54,524 nt of DNA from Ilumatobacter sp. (GTDB lineage Bacteria; Actinomycetota; Acidimicrobiia; Acidimicrobiales; Ilumatobacteraceae): assembly GCA_013002175.1 (NCBI GenBank), contig JABDKP010000091.1, forward strand, positions 1-54,524. Direction: 5' to 3'. Below the pieces are notes generated by a model that was not told the DNA's origin, ran no database searches, and saw only the letters and a program-made list of their open reading frames with translations. Each line of letters begins with the position of its first letter. Position 1 is the stretch's first letter. Shown in pieces: positions 922 to 6,309 of this stretch. A program made the position numbers and the translations under genes.

Positions 922-2013
922 CTATCCGAATGCGGCGCGCAGCACGACGTCGCCGGACGACGACTGACCTCCGTCGTCACCGGGGACTGCGGACTCGAGC
1001 GTGACGACGAACGACGCCACCCGATCGAGTTCGACACCTGCCCACATCGTGATCCGGCCGCCACGCCGGAACGTGCCGACGGGGACGAGTGCACCGTCGG
1101 TTGTACCGACCCACGCCTGGTAGAACGTGCCGTCGATGCCCCGGGGCAGATTCGGTGCGTCCAGCACCACCTCGAGGCCGGCGTCGAAGGACGTGATCGA
1201 GACGTCGCCGCTGACATCGAGCACCAACCCGGTCGGGGTCAACTCGGCAGTGACGGCGTCGCGCTCGGTGGTGCCGCTCAACGCGCTGAGCACGACGACG
1301 CCGCCGAACACCAGCGTGATCGCGGCCAATGCGCCGAGCAGCGCCGGCCGGACCCACGACGACTGCGATGAGGAACGCGTGTCGCCGATCGACGGCGGCC
1401 GCGCGCCGACGTCCGCGGCGACTGCGACGTTGATCCGGTCGCTGAGGTCGGGCGGGGGGTCGAGCCAGAACATCGGGTCGGAGAGAAGTGCCGGCACCAC
1501 CTCCGCAGCGACACTCGGGACGGAGGGACTCGCGACGGAGGCGACGCGTCGCTCGGCGCGTTCGAGCTGTGCTCGCACGTCGTCGGGGTCGGTGTCGCCG
1601 AGGTCTGCGATCGCGGTGCGGTCCACTCCTTCGAGGCGGCTCAGCCGGAGCATCTCGCGACGGTCCGCATCGAGCGAGTCGACTGCGACACGGACGGCCC
1701 AGACGAGATCGACGTCAGGTGCAGGTGCAGCGCCGCCGTCGGCGTCGACGAACCGCCGAGTGATCGACGCGAGCCACGGCGCGAAGTCGTCGCCGGGTTC
1801 GATGTCGCCGGCATCACGCCACGCCTGCACGACGACCCGTTGAGTGAGCTCGGCGGCCCGCGCCGGATCACCGGCGGCGACGGCGGCGACCGAGTACAGG
1901 ACGGCGCCGTGACCGGCGTACAGCGCACCGACGGCGGCGGTGTCGCCATCTCGAAGTGCCGTCGCGATCTCGGCGTCCTGCCGGACGACGTGGACGGGTC
2001 GGAACAGCTCCAT
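922..2013 (-). CDS. Single-chain ECF sigma-like / RskA-type anti-sigma fusion membrane protein
   Basis: A 363-residue protein whose domains are normally on two proteins. Residues about 11-90 match ECF sigma region 2 (TQRVVVQAW and APWLASITRR align with TQEVFVAAW and GAWLTGITRH of the sigma factor at 3899-4450). Residues about 100-150 resemble sigma region 4. Residues 186-200 (PPPDLSDRI) resemble the PPPAVWDAI motif of the neighbouring anti-sigma protein. One membrane helix lies at about 222-247, and residues about 255-363 form an RskA-like C-terminal domain. The basic LRRE-type tail of region 2 is replaced by an Asp/Gly/Ala/Pro stretch, so promoter binding may be impaired. It is last in a minus-strand run after the DUF4397 and sortase genes, 48 bases from the sortase stop. 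It may be a tethered sigma factor released by proteolysis, or a sigma mimic that titrates the neighbouring anti-sigma factor. The domain reading is by eye. Confidence 0.75.
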   Translation of the reverse strand: MELFRPVHVVRQDAEIATALRDGDTAAVGALYAGHGAVLYSVAAVAAGDPARAAELTQRVVVQAWRDAGDIEPGDDFAPWLASITRRFVDADGGAAPAPDVDLVWAVRVAVDSLDADRREMLRLSRLEGVDRTAIADLGDTDPDDVRAQLERAERRVASVASPSVPSVAAEVVPALLSDPMFWLDPPPDLSDRINVAVAADVGARPPSIGDTRSSSQSSWVRPALLGALAAITLVFGGVVVLSALSGTTERDAVTAELTPTGLVLDVSGDVSITSFDAGLEVVLDAPNLPRGIDGTFYQAWVGTTDGALVPVGTFRRGGRITMWAGVELDRVASFVVTLESAVPGDDGGQSSSGDVVLRAAFG

Positions 2014-2061
2014 GACCGGCCCGATCGTATTGCGTCAGCACCGAAGCGGGCTGAGCGCGCC

Positions 2062-2877
2062 TCACCGAAGCGGATGAGGGTCGGTTTCGACCGGCCTGGC
2101 GAAGGCGACGACGTTGTCTTCGTAGCTGCGCTGGGCACGATTGAAGCGGCCCCCACACGTGAACAACACCAGGGTGGGATCTCCGTCTTTCGCCCAGACG
2201 AGCGCTTCGGGCAGTTCGTCCTTGTCGTACAGTTCGACTGCGACGATCTCGAACGTCTGCGTGGTCCCGTCTTCGTAGCCGATCTCAACCAGTTCGCCAC
2301 CGTCGAGGTCACGAAGGTAGCGGAACACCCCAGGAACCCCGTTGTAGTTCACGTGTGCCGCGAGGACCGACGCGCCGCGCCGCCCGGGGACCGAACTCCC
2401 CGTGTACCAACCGACCACGAGCGGGTCCGGCACGTCGAGTTCGCCTTCGTTCTTCACCCCGACGGGATCGATCGGCGCGCGCTCGACACCCAGATCGGCG
2501 ATGGAGATCGTGAGCGGACGGGCCGCGGTGACGTGGTCGTTCGGGTCGTAGGTCGCGCTGCCGATCGGCTGCACGAGCTCGGCGAGCGGTGACGGGGCCG
2601 CCGCCGGCCGGGTGACGACCGAGCCGGCGAGGCGGGTGGAGTCGTCAGCGACCTGATGAACGACATCGGCATCAGCGGATGACTGCGTTCCGCTCGGAGG
2701 TCGGACCGTCACGACCGACGGCGGTGTGGTGCCGGCGGGGAGGCCCGGCACCACACCGTCGATCGTCGCAGCGATGAGCGCCTCGGTCGCACCGCGTGAA
2801 GGCGTCGAACTGCACGCGCCCGCGACCAGCACGAGTGCGAACAGCCCGATCCACATGCGTTTCACCGGTGCGATCAC
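2062..2877 (-). CDS. Class E/F-type sortase, membrane- or lipid-anchored
   Basis: A 271-residue sortase-family transpeptidase. The triad is visible: His175 in VLAAHVNYNG, Cys241 in LVLFTCGGRF, and an Arg among 244-250. The N-terminus (residues 1-22) is hydrophobic and ends in VAGAC, a weak lipobox with Cys22; otherwise it is a signal anchor. A Ser/Thr/Pro-rich spacer (about 23-115) separates it from the catalytic barrel, as in actinobacterial class E/F enzymes. Sortases join proteins carrying LPxTG-like motifs to cell wall or to each other at the outer membrane face. The start is GTG at 2877, seven bases after the DUF4397 gene, so the two are probably cotranscribed. The neighbouring DUF4397 protein lacks a classical LPxTG; the only clear LPxTG protein in the window is at the far right end. 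Confidence 0.85.
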   Translation of the reverse strand: MIAPVKRMWIGLFALVLVAGACSSTPSRGATEALIAATIDGVVPGLPAGTTPPSVVTVRPPSGTQSSADADVVHQVADDSTRLAGSVVTRPAAAPSPLAELVQPIGSATYDPNDHVTAARPLTISIADLGVERAPIDPVGVKNEGELDVPDPLVVGWYTGSSVPGRRGASVLAAHVNYNGVPGVFRYLRDLDGGELVEIGYEDGTTQTFEIVAVELYDKDELPEALVWAKDGDPTLVLFTCGGRFNRAQRSYEDNVVAFARPVETDPHPLR

Positions 2878-2884
2878 GTCGGTG

Positions 2885-3688
2885 TCAGGCGGTGCGCTGC
2901 ACGCGGACGACCGCTCCGGTGCCGGCGAGTGCGAGCATCGCGATCAGCAGGATCGCCAGGTACGGAACGCCGCCCTCGCCATCGATCGGCGTGTTGCCGG
3001 TGTTGACGCGGGTCGGGGCCGTTCCGAGGCCGTCGATCGTCTCCGTCAGCACCGTCAGCGAGTCGTCGGACAGCGAGCCGACGGCGTAGACGATGAGGTT
3101 CTGCCCATCGGCGATGCTGAGATCAGCCGGCCCGATCACCGGATCGGTCGTTCCGGCCGGGGCGACGCTGGCGTTGATCGTGCCGACCGGAAGGTCGACC
3201 ACACCCTCTTGCGGGTTCGTGACGCCTGCGAATGCGACGTTGCCGTCTGCCAGGACATCGACGGCCGGCGCGGCAGCCGTGTGACGGACGGTGAGTCGGC
3301 CCTCGCCCGCGGCAATCGAGCTGACGTCGTTTTCGAAGACGCCGAGCGACGGCGTGCCGTCTGCGCTCAGGTGGGCAATCACCGTGTAGTTCCCGCTGCC
3401 CGGCAACGTGACGTCACCGGCGTCGATGGCGACGGTGTCGGTGCCGGCTGCCTTCACCTGCACGCCGACCAGCGTCTGGCCGGCCAGCGCCGACAGATCC
3501 TGGGTGTCACCGAACGAGAAGCCCTCGAACACGTTCGCTCCGCCGGCCGCGACGTCGACGTCGACGCCGGGTATGCCGTGGATGAGATGGATTCGGGCTT
3601 CGGACTGTGCATCGGTGCCCGAGCCGAACGCGACGAGGCTGGTTGCCGCAACGAGCGTCGTTGCGAACGTCTTCTTGATGGACCACAT
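2885..3688 (-). CDS. DUF4397 domain secreted protein with C-terminal membrane anchor
   Basis: A 267-residue exported protein. Residues 1-28 form a Sec signal peptide (Lys-rich start, hydrophobic core, cleavage near TDAQS). Residues about 30-215 match the DUF4397 beta-rich extracellular family (IHLIHGIPGVDVDV near the start; a second similar stretch, TVRHTAAAPAVDVLADG, near 133). After a Gly/Thr linker, residues about 240-262 form a membrane helix followed by a short basic tail (RVQRTA). This looks like a cell-wall sorting end, but no LPxTG motif precedes the helix, so either the sortase accepts another motif or the protein stays membrane-anchored. GAAAGG lies upstream of the ATG. First gene of the minus-strand run with the sortase and the sigma/anti-sigma fusion. 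The ligand is unknown. Confidence 0.8.
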   Translation of the reverse strand: MWSIKKTFATTLVAATSLVAFGSGTDAQSEARIHLIHGIPGVDVDVAAGGANVFEGFSFGDTQDLSALAGQTLVGVQVKAAGTDTVAIDAGDVTLPGSGNYTVIAHLSADGTPSLGVFENDVSSIAAGEGRLTVRHTAAAPAVDVLADGNVAFAGVTNPQEGVVDLPVGTINASVAPAGTTDPVIGPADLSIADGQNLIVYAVGSLSDDSLTVLTETIDGLGTAPTRVNTGNTPIDGEGGVPYLAILLIAMLALAGTGAVVRVQRTA

Positions 3689-3898
3689 GGGGATGCCTTT
3701 CAGTAGGAAGTGTCATCGTCCCTACGCAACGGTCCGCCTCCGTGGATGCAGCGATCCCAGAAAATGTCGAAAGTCGTCGGTCGGGTGCATCCAAGTCGCA
3801 CGGTGCGTCCGAACCGTAGATGCATGTCTGCTGCCCTGCTGACTCGTCCGGACTGGCACAATGTCCCGGAGGAACCGCTCCGGCGCGTCTCCGATCAG
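3689..3898. promoter_or_regulatory. Divergent intergenic region of the ECF/sortase locus
   Basis: A 210-base gap between the start of the DUF4397 gene (minus) and the ECF sigma gene (plus), so it must hold promoters for both. No convincing housekeeping -35/-10 pair or long palindrome was found. A GGAGGA sits at 3868-3873 but is too far from the chosen ATG to act as its ribosome site. An in-frame upstream ATG at 3824 could lengthen the sigma factor by 25 residues. In SigK/RskA-type systems such gaps usually carry the autoregulated ECF promoter; that role is inferred here. Confidence 0.4.
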
Positions 3899-4450
3899 AT
3901 GACCGAACCGACAACGCTCGACGACGCGTTCGCGCGCGGTGGTGACTCGGTCCTGCGCGCCGCATACGACGAACACGGCTCATTCGTCTACTCGTTGTGC
4001 CGTCGGACCGTCGGCGAGGACCTCGCCGCGGACATCACGCAGGAGGTGTTCGTCGCCGCATGGCGGCAGCGGGCGTCGTACGACCCGGCTCGGGGCAGCC
4101 TCGGCGCATGGCTGACCGGGATCACCCGGCACAAGATCGTCGACGTGCTGCGGCGCGAGGCCCGCCACCGAAACGAACGCCTCGACTCGTCGAACGTGCT
4201 GCTCGACGTGTCCGACCCGGTCGAATGGGTACGCCAGCTCGGCGACCGGATGCTCCTCGCGGATGCGATGGAAGCTCTGACCGAACGAGCACGCGCGGTG
4301 ATCGAGCTCGCCTTCGTCGAGGATCTCACCCATGAACAGATCGCAGCATCGACCGGCATCCCGCTCGGCACCGTGAAGAGCGACGTGCGCCGGGGCCTCG
4401 ACCGACTGCGACGCCACATCGACTTCGACCCCCCGACCGGTGAAACATGA
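3899..4450 (+). CDS. ECF RNA polymerase sigma factor, SigK-like
   Basis: A 183-residue ECF sigma factor. Region 2 (residues about 20-90) contains DITQEVFVAAW and ends in the basic VDVLRREARHR, and region 4 (about 120-175) contains LTERARAVIELAFVEDLTHEQIA followed by TGIPLGTVKSDVRRGLDRLR, the -35-binding helix-turn-helix. It directs polymerase to a small regulon and is normally held by its anti-sigma partner, encoded immediately downstream with ATGA stop/start overlap at 4447-4450. The ATG at 3899 gives the family's usual length; the frame is open upstream with an alternative ATG at 3824. It is divergent from the DUF4397/sortase/fusion genes, which are plausible targets (inference). Residues 113-183 of this protein align by eye with residues about 100-155 of the fusion protein. 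Confidence 0.92.
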   Translation: MTEPTTLDDAFARGGDSVLRAAYDEHGSFVYSLCRRTVGEDLAADITQEVFVAAWRQRASYDPARGSLGAWLTGITRHKIVDVLRREARHRNERLDSSNVLLDVSDPVEWVRQLGDRMLLADAMEALTERARAVIELAFVEDLTHEQIAASTGIPLGTVKSDVRRGLDRLRRHIDFDPPTGET

Positions 4451-5079
4451 TGAACGACCCCGATGACCGAGTCCGCCACCTGCTGCGCGACGTGACCCCC
4501 GATGACGCGCGCCGCACCGCGCCCCCGCCGGCCGTGTGGGACGCGATCGCCGCTGAGGTCGGCCACGATGCCCGCGCCGACACCGCCGACGCGACGGACG
4601 AGACCGTCGCAGGGGTCGTCGCGCCCATCCCATTGCGGGCACGTCACCGGTGGTCATGGACGCTCGGCGCAGCGGCCGTGTTGCTGGTGGCGATCGGAGC
4701 CGCCGTGATCATCGACGCGCGCCGTGCGGACGCACCCGACCTGATCGCCGCGGTGGACGTGACCAGCGAAGGCCTGCCGGATGCGCCCGCTGGGATCGCC
4801 ACCCGCGCGATCATCGAGGAGACCGGCGGCGTACGCCGGGTCGCGCTCGACGTGTCCGGCGTCGACGTCGGTGCCGATGAGTTCCTCGAACTCTGGCTGA
4901 TCAACGACGACATCACCGACATGGTGTCGCTCGGCGTCGTCCGCAACGGCGGCACGTTCGAGATCCCCGCCGAGGTGGAACTGGCCGACTTCCCGATCAT
5001 CGACGTGTCGGTCGAACCCGACGACGGCGTGCCGACGCACTCGGGACGCTCGGTGCTGCGCGGCCGCCTCGAAGCCTGA
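4447..5079 (+). CDS. RskA-type membrane anti-sigma factor
   Basis: A 210-residue protein translationally coupled to the ECF sigma gene (ATGA overlap). The cytoplasmic part (1-72) holds the anti-sigma motif RTAPPPAVWDAIAAEV; it lacks an obvious His-x3-Cys-x2-Cys zinc motif. One membrane helix runs about 73-91 (WTLGAAAVLLVAIGAAVII). The outside part (95-210) matches the RskA C-terminal domain (LDVSGVDVGADEFLELWLI, then PIIDVSVEPDDGVPTHSGRSVLRGRL). Known members sequester the sigma factor until stepwise proteolysis releases it. The motif order after the first 20 residues is the same as in the second half of the fusion protein at 922-2013, suggesting shared ancestry. The sensed signal cannot be read. 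Confidence 0.88.
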   Translation: MMNDPDDRVRHLLRDVTPDDARRTAPPPAVWDAIAAEVGHDARADTADATDETVAGVVAPIPLRARHRWSWTLGAAAVLLVAIGAAVIIDARRADAPDLIAAVDVTSEGLPDAPAGIATRAIIEETGGVRRVALDVSGVDVGADEFLELWLINDDITDMVSLGVVRNGGTFEIPAEVELADFPIIDVSVEPDDGVPTHSGRSVLRGRLEA

Positions 5080-5093
5080 GCCGATGGTGCAAC

Positions 5094-5170
5094 TGGTGGG
5101 CACGACGGGACTCGAACCCGGGACCTCTACCGTGTCATGGTAGCGCTCTAACCAACTGAGCTACGCGCCC
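5094..5170 (-). tRNA. tRNA-Val(GAC)
   Basis: A 77-base tRNA on the minus strand. The acceptor stem GGGCGCG pairs with CGTGCCC (one G-U pair), the D arm contains AGTTGGTTAGA, and the anticodon stem CTACC/GGTAG closes a seven-base loop ATGACAC, giving anticodon GAC for valine. The T loop has TTCGAGT, and the 3' CCA is encoded in the DNA (5094-5096). GATAAC at 5185-5190 on the minus strand is a possible -10 element; no clear -35 was found. It lies downstream of hemW and converges with the anti-sigma gene. Confidence 0.95.
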
Positions 5171-5235
5171 GTAGCGGCTGACAAGTTATCACCGCGGACC
5201 TCGCACACCACCGACCGCGCCCACGGTGGGAACGG

Positions 5236-6309
5236 TCAGTCGGCGAGCCGCATCGAGATGTCGTTCGCCATCAGCCGCCCTGCCCGGGTGAGCACCACGC
5301 GATCCGGGTCCTCGGGATGCGGTGCGATCATCCCGTCCAGCAGCTCCAGCGTCTCGGGCGCGAAGGCCGACCGTTCGATGCCGTCGCGCGTGCGCAGGAT
5401 CAACTGCTGTCCCTCGATGTGCCGGACCGCCGGATCGAGCGTCTCTGCTGCCGCCTCGACCGACTCGCCGCGGTCGACCAGATCGATGTAGCGGTCGGGC
5501 GTGCGCACATTCCACCAGCGCCGGCCGTCCTGATGGGAGTGGGCGGCACATCCGAAGCCGCGGTAGTTCTCCTGCCGCCAGTACAGGAAGTTGTGCTGCG
5601 ACTCGTGCCCGTCGAGGGCCCAGTTCGACACCTCGTAGTTGGCGAGCCCCGCGCCGGTCAGCAATCGGTCGGCGACCTCGTACTTGTCTGCCTGATCGTC
5701 GTCGTCCGGATGGCGGTCGGATCGGTCGGCGAGCGGCGTGCCGGCCTCGACGGTGAGGGCGTACGCCGAGACGTGCGGGGGGCGGAGGTCGAGTGCCGCC
5801 TCGACGGTCTGCGTCCAGTCGTCGACCGTCTCGCCCGCCGCGCCGTAGATCAGGTCGAGATTGAAGGTCGGCAGGCCGACGGTGCGGACCGCGTCGACCG
5901 CACGCGCCACGTTGTGCCGGTCGTGGGTCCGGCCCAGCGCGGCGAGCACGTGCGCGGACATCGACTGCACACCGATGCTGACCCGGTTGACGCCGGCCGC
6001 GACGTAGGTCTGCAGCAGCTCGACCGTGACGTCATCGGGATTGCACTCGACGGTGACCTCGGAGTCGGCGGTCCTCGGGATCGCAACGATCGCTGCTGCC
6101 AGCGCCTCCGGCGCCACGAGCGTCGGCGTCCCGCCCCCGACGAAGATCGTGTCGGCGGTCGGCATCCCAGCCTCGACGGCGGCGGCGATCTCGGTCTGGA
6201 GCGCGTCGAGGTATGCGGTGGTCAGATGGTGCCGGTCGGTCCACGTCGCGAACGCGCAGTAGTCACACTTCGAGGCGCAGAACGGGATGTGGAGGTACAC
6301 GCCGAACAT
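5236..6309 (-). CDS. hemW: HemW-like radical SAM protein, putative heme chaperone
   Basis: A 357-residue radical SAM protein. Near the N-terminus, HIPFCASKCDYCAF supplies the Cx3Cx2C cluster motif (Cys11, 15, 18). GGGTPT follows at about residue 65, and VSIGVQS at about 115. HemW proteins share ancestry with coproporphyrinogen oxidase HemN but act as heme-binding chaperones; members are often misnamed HemN. The ATG at 6309 puts the SAM motif at the family's usual position; the frame is open further upstream but that extension is low-complexity Arg/Ser. It follows the bldD homologue by 28 bases on the same strand. Its place beside lepA/hrcA/dnaJ is typical of hemW in many Gram-positive genomes. 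Confidence 0.9.
   Translation of the reverse strand: MFGVYLHIPFCASKCDYCAFATWTDRHHLTTAYLDALQTEIAAAVEAGMPTADTIFVGGGTPTLVAPEALAAAIVAIPRTADSEVTVECNPDDVTVELLQTYVAAGVNRVSIGVQSMSAHVLAALGRTHDRHNVARAVDAVRTVGLPTFNLDLIYGAAGETVDDWTQTVEAALDLRPPHVSAYALTVEAGTPLADRSDRHPDDDDQADKYEVADRLLTGAGLANYEVSNWALDGHESQHNFLYWRQENYRGFGCAAHSHQDGRRWWNVRTPDRYIDLVDRGESVEAAAETLDPAVRHIEGQQLILRTRDGIERSAFAPETLELLDGMIAPHPEDPDRVVLTRAGRLMANDISMRLAD

Follow-up and report, generated by a model that had tools for sequence, protein, structure and literature searches.

A membrane-anchored fusion of an ECF sigma-like domain and an RskA-type anti-sigma in Ilumatobacter, lacking the promoter-reading regions of its sigma part

Introduction

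The usual reading of a sigma factor fused to its anti-sigma factor is that of a self-contained switch from which an active sigma factor is released. One protein encoded in a 54,524-nucleotide stretch of Ilumatobacter sp. (GenBank assembly GCA_013002175.1, contig JABDKP010000091.1, positions 1 to 54,524; called the window below) departs from that reading, and raises the question of what a sigma-like domain may do when it is joined to a membrane anti-sigma and has lost the parts that read promoters. An earlier note on this DNA had offered two answers, a membrane-tethered sigma factor freed by proteolysis and a sigma decoy that competes for the anti-sigma factor. Here we describe a computational analysis of the gene, its relatives and its neighbours that bears on both.

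Results

One open frame joins sigma-like, anti-sigma and RskA_C parts

The fusion gene occupies positions 922..2013 of the minus strand, to which the coordinates of all its parts also refer, and forms a single intact frame of 363 aa with its stop codon at 922-924. The extent of the gene and the order of sigma2, sigma4, PPPxL motif, membrane helix and RskA_C domain in one frame were therefore as the earlier note had described them. The protein opens with the motif MELFRPVHVVR (residues 1-11; 1981..2013) and continues with a sigma2-like domain (residues 12-91; 1741..1980) that was delimited by alignment, motif counts, model helices between residues 7 and 91 and a match to Pfam Sigma70_r2 (residues 31-87, E 2.4e-6, 27.7 bits against a cut-off of 24). 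In the alignment, regions 2.1-2.3 of this domain are recognisable and PWL is retained; region 2.4 is deleted, and motif counts agree with the earlier note that the basic end of region 2 is missing. The sigma4-like domain (residues 101-161; 1531..1713) was placed by motif counts, a Foldseek match and a match to Pfam Sigma70_r4_2 (residues 107-156, E 5e-5, 23.3 bits) that lies slightly below the cut-off of 25.7, and the recognition-helix motif GTVKSR has become DPDDVRAQ. A sigma match for the N-terminal half therefore holds above the Pfam cut-off for sigma2 and stays below it for sigma4.

The anti-sigma segment (residues 166-204; 1402..1518), with LLSDPMFWLDPPPDLSDRINVAV, was located by alignment with unfused anti-sigmas and has model helices at 166-177, 180-183 and 190-204, PPPDL (residues 186-190) lying between the last two. 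A single transmembrane helix (residues 222-245; 1279..1350) is plain from a hydrophobic run in the translation and is modelled with moderate confidence (block means 56-78). Beyond it lies an extracytoplasmic RskA_C beta domain (residues 253-361; 931..1257), the strands of which are seen in the model and which is covered by Pfam RskA_C (residues 226-341, E 9.6e-9, 36 bits against a cut-off of 29.4). The NCBIfam 'antisigma' model NF052375 matched residues 175-342 (E 1.7e-11), but the 44.5 bits of this match do not reach the curated cut-off of 100. Both hallmarks of an RskA-type protein, RskA_C after one membrane helix and an anti-sigma segment before that helix, are present, and the Pfam matches of the protein at E up to 1 included neither a receiver domain nor a zinc-finger family.

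The annotated start is preceded by a -10 type element

A TACGAT element of the -10 type (TANNNT; 2024..2029, minus strand) begins 16 bases ahead of the ATG. All of the fused genes and the unfused genes of the FRP type (9/9) have a TANNNT whose first T lies 12-16 bases ahead of the FRP start, compared with a rate of about 1.3% (0.013) per equal window, although these nine genes are relatives and so are not nine independent trials. According to the cited passages of PMC3160421, -10 type signals close to the start mark leaderless genes, which are common in Actinobacteria. The position of TACGAT backs the annotated ATG and suggests that the fusion mRNA is leaderless or nearly so. An internal start that leaves the sigma half untranslated is unlikely, given the near-fixed TANNNT spacing before the FRP start in all nine genes and the selection on the sigma half described below.

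The M.EFRP motif at the N terminus is the best-kept part of the sigma half (1981-2013 in the window, and at the same place in eight relatives). The FRP codons vary at third positions across distant copies, and the motif thus looks kept as protein. However, the first 20 codons also differ little at synonymous sites between the window genome (G000) and G002 (pS 0.13).

The same fusion is present in six genomes of the family

A profile search of 221 family genomes gave matches at E up to 1e-12 in 27, which were then subjected to an ORF check. Six of the 27 carry the fusion, in two (G009 and G035) a contig end truncates the anti-sigma part, and separate frames are seen in all the others. The fused order, which the earlier note had proposed to look for in related genomes, is therefore found in 6/221 family genomes, five of one genus (G000, G001, G002, G007 and G008) and one of another (G024). 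Among the ten genomes of the first genus, the remaining five comprise three with unfused FRP-type pairs (G003, G005 and G006), G009 with a 3' fragment, and G004 (69% complete), in which there was no match. The G009 fragment is a C-terminal RskA_C piece of the same kind at the end of contig C117 (L044:1-300), and the G008 fusion runs into a contig end after residue 301.

Searched singly with Pfam at E up to 0.1, the six fusions gave RskA_C in 4/6, Sigma70_r2 in 3/6 and Sigma70_r4_2 in 2/6, which suggests that in some of them the sigma part is eroding past Pfam's reach; sigma4 is wholly lost from the G024 fusion. A profile of all six matched ECF sigmas among solved structures (best E 3.8e-12). 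Further afield, profiles were run against 397 genomes of the order, 396 of the phylum and 395 of the class, sets that overlap and in which the five best first-look candidates were scored per genome; among the matches listed, no further one had both halves and no stop. When open frames were checked at 153 loci, 99 of which contain both parts, only the six genomes had fused ones. Searching the genome contigs for the FRP motif gave 17 stretches, four of which are relatives.

The window assembly is incomplete (191 contigs, 89% complete), which counts in favour of an assembly or sequencing error having joined two genes. However, the same fusion occurs in independent genomes at 35-63% identity, and a frameshift between two genes, one of the outcomes that the earlier note had named as refuting its reading, was looked for and not found, the same one-frame architecture being seen in six genomes. 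We consider such an artefact extremely improbable; frameshift and mis-assembly are ruled out by the independent copies.

Promoter-reading regions are lost from all fusions

We compared the six fusions with 19 intact relatives chosen from unfused loci, in stretches that we take, from general knowledge of ECF sigmas, to be regions 2.2-4.2. The region 2.4 motif of -10 recognition is present in 19/19 intact proteins and 0/6 fusions, and the same holds for the GTVKS-type motif of the region 4.2 recognition helix (19/19 against 0/6), while the region 2.3 tryptophan is kept throughout (19/19 and 6/6). The Q..F pair of region 2.2 occurs at its aligned place in 19/19 intact proteins and 0/6 fusions (Q in one, F in four); a Q..F string in G024 lies in region 2.1, not at the aligned place. 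The net charge of region 4.2 averages +3.6 in the intact set, against -3 in the window protein. Conversely, the N-terminal FRP is found in all six fusions and in only 3/19 intact proteins, the three unfused orthologues. The tryptophan before PPPxL (W183) is retained in 6/6 fusions, G024 included, and the exact PPPxL in 3/6. It can be seen that a sigma2 without region 2.4 and a short membrane-proximal anti-sigma segment are recognisable in all six.

As regions 2.4 and 4.2 are lost in the fusions, the sigma half is not expected to guide RNA polymerase to promoters, and naming the protein a sigma factor from its Sigma70_r2 match alone would assign it the wrong function. The loss of Q..F implies that the face of sigma2 that binds RNA polymerase and, in other pairs, the anti-sigma is changing too.

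These losses bear directly on whether the protein might be a functional membrane-tethered sigma factor freed by regulated proteolysis, in the style of IutY or ECF52, as the earlier note had put forward. The order of sigma, anti-sigma, membrane helix and outer domain matches such a protein, and members of the site-2 protease family (PF02163), which is generic, are encoded in 11/11 genomes searched. However, regions 2.4 and 4.2 are gone from 6/6 fusions and kept in 19/19 intact relatives, and the region 2.2 Q..F is gone from its place in all six. We conclude that the tethered-sigma proposal is not supported by this evidence and rate it as very unlikely.

The sigma-like half and the anti-sigma helices are predicted to form one body

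The full-length AlphaFold2 model, made from an alignment (A3) in which the intact sigma rows are cut before 4.2, has a pLDDT of 88.1 and a pTM of 0.60. For residues 1-208 the mean pLDDT was 92.9 and the pTM 0.87, with the sigma-like part and the anti-sigma helices in one body. Block means were 94-98 in the sigma-like helices (101-160), 74 at 161-170, then 95, 97 and 97 on the anti-sigma side (171-200) and 84 at 201-208, and most of the anti-sigma segment is thus modelled as confidently as the sigma-like part; the cis packing itself is that of a single predicted model on a 25-row alignment.

In Foldseek searches the nearest solved folds were ECF sigmas, and most of the leading matches came from complexes with an anti-sigma (AlgU-MucA, SigW-RsiW, SigE-RseA). 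The rmsd was about 12-15 A to anti-sigma-complexed sigmas and about 23-27 A to RNA polymerase-bound ones, the two kinds being mixed when ranked by E-value, and whole-body TM-scores were below 0.5, which means that the domain arrangement is only roughly alike. A stretch of 62 columns matched sigmaE region 4 (2h27_D) with an rmsd of 1.0 A (E 0.28). Sequence and model, with the loose whole-body fold match, together point to a sigma-like fold without promoter-reading elements. The full model also weakly matches Cu,Zn superoxide dismutase folds (E about 0.02-0.06), presumably via the RskA_C beta domain (residues 253-361; window 931-1257) and probably as a general beta-sandwich likeness.

The sigma half evolves under constraint, less tightly than intact sigmas

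We estimated omega by NG86 with a codon bootstrap, a measure that is rough on GC-rich diverged genes. For the sigma half as a whole it was 0.42 (0.28-0.64) in the pair G000/G002 and 0.28 (0.14-0.45) in G007/G008, where synonymous differences are high (pS 0.63 in the sigma half). With upper bounds below 1 in two pairs, the sigma half as a whole appears from these sequences to be under purifying selection. In G000/G002, RskA_C gave 0.25 (0.15-0.41), the sigma4 part alone 0.53 (0.26-1.02) and the anti-sigma/linker part, the fastest-changing of all, 0.60 (0.29-1.19), the last two intervals reaching 1. Intact sigmas are held more tightly, with 0.14 for sigma2 of the neighbouring ECF2 and 0.19 for the unfused sigma of G003/G005.

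An alternative explanation is that the fusion is vestigial, with an anti-sigma and RskA_C that are useful for ECF2 or in another role and a sigma half that is a decaying passenger after loss of a stop codon. Erosion is indeed graded, from the Q..F missing at its place in 6/6 to the complete loss of sigma4 in G024, selection is weaker than on an intact sigma2 (0.35 against 0.14), and the bootstrap intervals of both sigma4 and anti-sigma/linker reach 1. However, a passenger would not readily account for the upper bounds of 0.64 and 0.45 on the whole sigma half, for six diverged sigma halves with neither stop nor frameshift, for FRP and the region 2.3 tryptophan retained in 6/6, or for the compact and confident model of residues 1-208. 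We regard decay of this kind as possible, though doubtful.

An ordinary ECF sigma/anti-sigma pair adjoins the fusion

A hydrolase gene ends at 921, beside the fusion, and a class F sortase gene (2062..2877, minus strand; Pfam, NCBIfam) lies upstream of it; a gene for a DUF4397 protein is also among the window neighbours. The ordinary ECF sigma/RskA pair that the earlier note had placed next to the fusion is present on the plus strand. Its sigma factor, ECF2 (3824..4450), has regions 2.4 and 4.2 intact and probably starts at ATG 3824, as inferred from the G002 homologue, within an ORF that opens at GTG 3710; the RskA-type anti-sigma, RskA2 (4447..5079), overlaps the ECF2 stop. ECF2 is the sole other match in the window's own genome (E up to 0.001). 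The block of ECF2/RskA2, DUF4397 and class F sortase sits between tRNA-Val and the fusion in G000 (2062-5079) and in G002 (L032 8732-11775) and was not found there in G006, G005, G003 or G001; the tRNA-Val locus may be an insertion hot spot.

This neighbour raises the alternative that the protein is a self-capped anti-sigma, the sigma-like half being a removable lid and the freed helix silencing another ECF factor such as ECF2. Such a role would be consistent with the retention of W183 in every fusion, with ECF2/RskA2 adjoining the fusion in both G000 and G002, and with another ECF-sigma-like ORF about 4.4 kb past the 3' piece of the G008 fusion (L043:4613-5173). However, within the stretches examined, ECF2/RskA2 did not turn up next to the fusion of G001, G007 or G024; moreover, the anti-sigma/linker is the part that changes fastest, with PPPxL in just 3/6. 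We give this alternative little credence. The G008 ORF at 4613-5173 (contig C9, L043:3936-5873) matches ECF2 with an E of 4e-7, and the ORF that follows it (5226-5873) resembles a zinc-type anti-sigma by eye.

The fusion derives from a two-gene operon

The unfused FRP-type pairs of G003, G005 and G006 all lie near hemW (within 2 kb in G005 and G003), and the dnaJ block of the window is shared by G005 and G006. In G006 the order is hrcA-dnaJ-rsmE-XRE-hemW-tRNA-Val-sigma-anti-sigma-hydrolase. In the window the hrcA-to-tRNA-Val block and this hydrolase again flank the fusion, and tRNA-Val is separated from it by ECF2/RskA2, DUF4397 and sortase. The G001 fusion is likewise within 2 kb of hemW, and in G024 hemW and tRNA-Val lie at least 3.4 kb before the fusion. 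In the anti-sigma half, identity to the unfused orthologues is 46% with G003 and 50% with G006. Because relatives in the genus hold an intact pair near the same neighbour and with the same FRP motif, sequence comparison indicates that the fusion arose when the two genes of an ordinary bicistronic ECF sigma/RskA-like pair became one frame. An intact FRP-type orthologue was not found in the fused genomes (G007 99%, G024 98% and G008 94% complete), and the fusion has therefore replaced the pair.

The G007/G008 fusion lies away from the hemW locus, 13 bases behind a tRNA gene (L037:34-1165; L038:8732-9725), and so moved in that pair; its neighbours there, judged by eye from the sequences, are presumably RimO-, FtsK- or PgsA-like. 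ARAGORN called the preceding gene tRNA-Arg tct in G007 and a doubtful tRNA-Pyl cta in G008, apparently the same tRNA.

A four-marker species tree places unfused G006 with the fused genomes G001, G007 and G008 (support 100) and apart from fused G000/G002, the other nodes being weaker (37-79); an rpoB tree was dropped, there being no rpoB match in G001, G002 and G009. The best anti-sigma tree agrees weakly with separate fused groups, and forcing it to a single fusion group made it 5.8 log units worse (AU p 0.10, not rejected). If inheritance was vertical and pairs were never restored, the species tree calls for three fusions (G000/G002; G001/G007/G008; G024). A single origin of all fusions is disfavoured by the four-marker grouping; the anti-sigma tree test (AU p 0.10) is compatible with one origin followed by restored, duplicated or transferred pairs.

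Discussion

The reading that we favour, and consider probable, is that the protein combines a promoter-dead sigma mimic with a membrane anti-sigma of its own, which would hold the mimic in cis. Its cytoplasmic part is predicted to be one body, in which the sigma-like half folds together with the short anti-sigma helices; one predicted helix tethers it to the membrane, and RskA_C lies outside as the likely sensor. The sigma-like half would cap the anti-sigma helix in cis until RskA_C receives a signal. The body would then be opened or released, a step in which intramembrane proteolysis may take part. Once opened, the body may act by binding a partner rather than promoters. A different RskA-type anti-sigma is the most likely partner, by analogy with the binding of NepR by PhyR; alternatively, the freed anti-sigma helix might bind another ECF sigma. 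The cited passages of PMC7406223 describe class I anti-sigmas in which helix 4 contacts the RNA polymerase-binding region of sigma2, while the DNA-binding region of sigma4 is taken by helix 1, and give the binding of ASDI helix 4 to that region of sigma2 as general.

Several observations stand against the mimic. The G024 fusion has no sigma4, although a complete mimic ought to have retained it. Selection on the fused sigma is looser than on the intact sigma2 of ECF2, and in G000/G002 the intervals for sigma4 alone and for the anti-sigma/linker part reach 1. The change at the Q..F face of sigma2 also counts against it, as do the loose whole-body fold matches, with RNA polymerase-bound sigmas mixed among the top ones. 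The decoy proposed in the earlier note survives in its sigma-mimic part, but its nearest competitor would be, in the model, the protein's own fused anti-sigma in the same chain. No result of this analysis connected the decoy with the neighbouring anti-sigma at 4447-5079, and the ECF2/RskA2 pair was not found in the corresponding stretch of G001, G003, G005 or G006.

More tentatively, the lineage may repeatedly have made an ECF sigma/anti-sigma operon into a promoter-dead membrane chimera with a selected mimic, from which an outside signal would release a decoy that frees other sigmas; this wider scheme we hold to be possible at best, and 'repeatedly' would mean three times if intact pairs were never restored. 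If it is true, the chimera would be a membrane-sensing counterpart of PhyR. Close relatives span intact pairs, fusions with an eroded sigma4 and a fusion without sigma4, a series in which the fate of a selected sigma that does not read promoters is directly testable.

Fusions such as IutY and ECF52 and mimics such as PhyR are known separately, and their combination looks new: the titles, abstract starts and cited passages of the literature, a weak basis for an absence, held no description of a fusion with a sigma part lacking its promoter-reading regions. IutY of Pseudomonas putida (ECF243) carries sigma and anti-sigma in one polypeptide according to the cited passages of PMC5411451 and PMC8999054, and the window protein likewise has an ECF sigma-like N-half and a membrane anti-sigma C-half in one open frame. 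In those passages, however, the IutY sigma domain is active after cleavage by Prc/RseP, whereas the window protein appears to have no functional promoter-reading sigma domain, and its outer half is RskA_C. The actinobacterial proteins of ECF48, ECF52 and ECF53 (for example SCO4117) resemble it in having a C-terminal membrane anti-sigma fused to an ECF sigma; as far as the cited part of PMC8999054 describes them, they have a zinc-finger anti-sigma domain, one or two membrane helices and an expected release as active sigma, whereas the window protein has no zinc-finger Pfam match and a sigma part without regions 2.4 and 4.2. PhyR of Alphaproteobacteria, which matched weakly in our fold searches (9by5, E 0.026 to 0.29), has a domain that resembles an ECF sigma but binds an anti-sigma instead of serving as a sigma factor; it is described in the cited passages of PMC4598750 with a receiver domain and no fused anti-sigma, whereas the window protein has a fused membrane anti-sigma and no receiver match. 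The pairs of G003, G005 and G006, with their FRP motif and RskA_C, are its most likely evolutionary source, but they are two genes with regions 2.4 and 4.2 intact where the window has one gene with neither. The window protein thus joins the fusion architecture of IutY and ECF48/52/53 to the promoter-dead sigma fold of PhyR, and departs from each in a defining feature.
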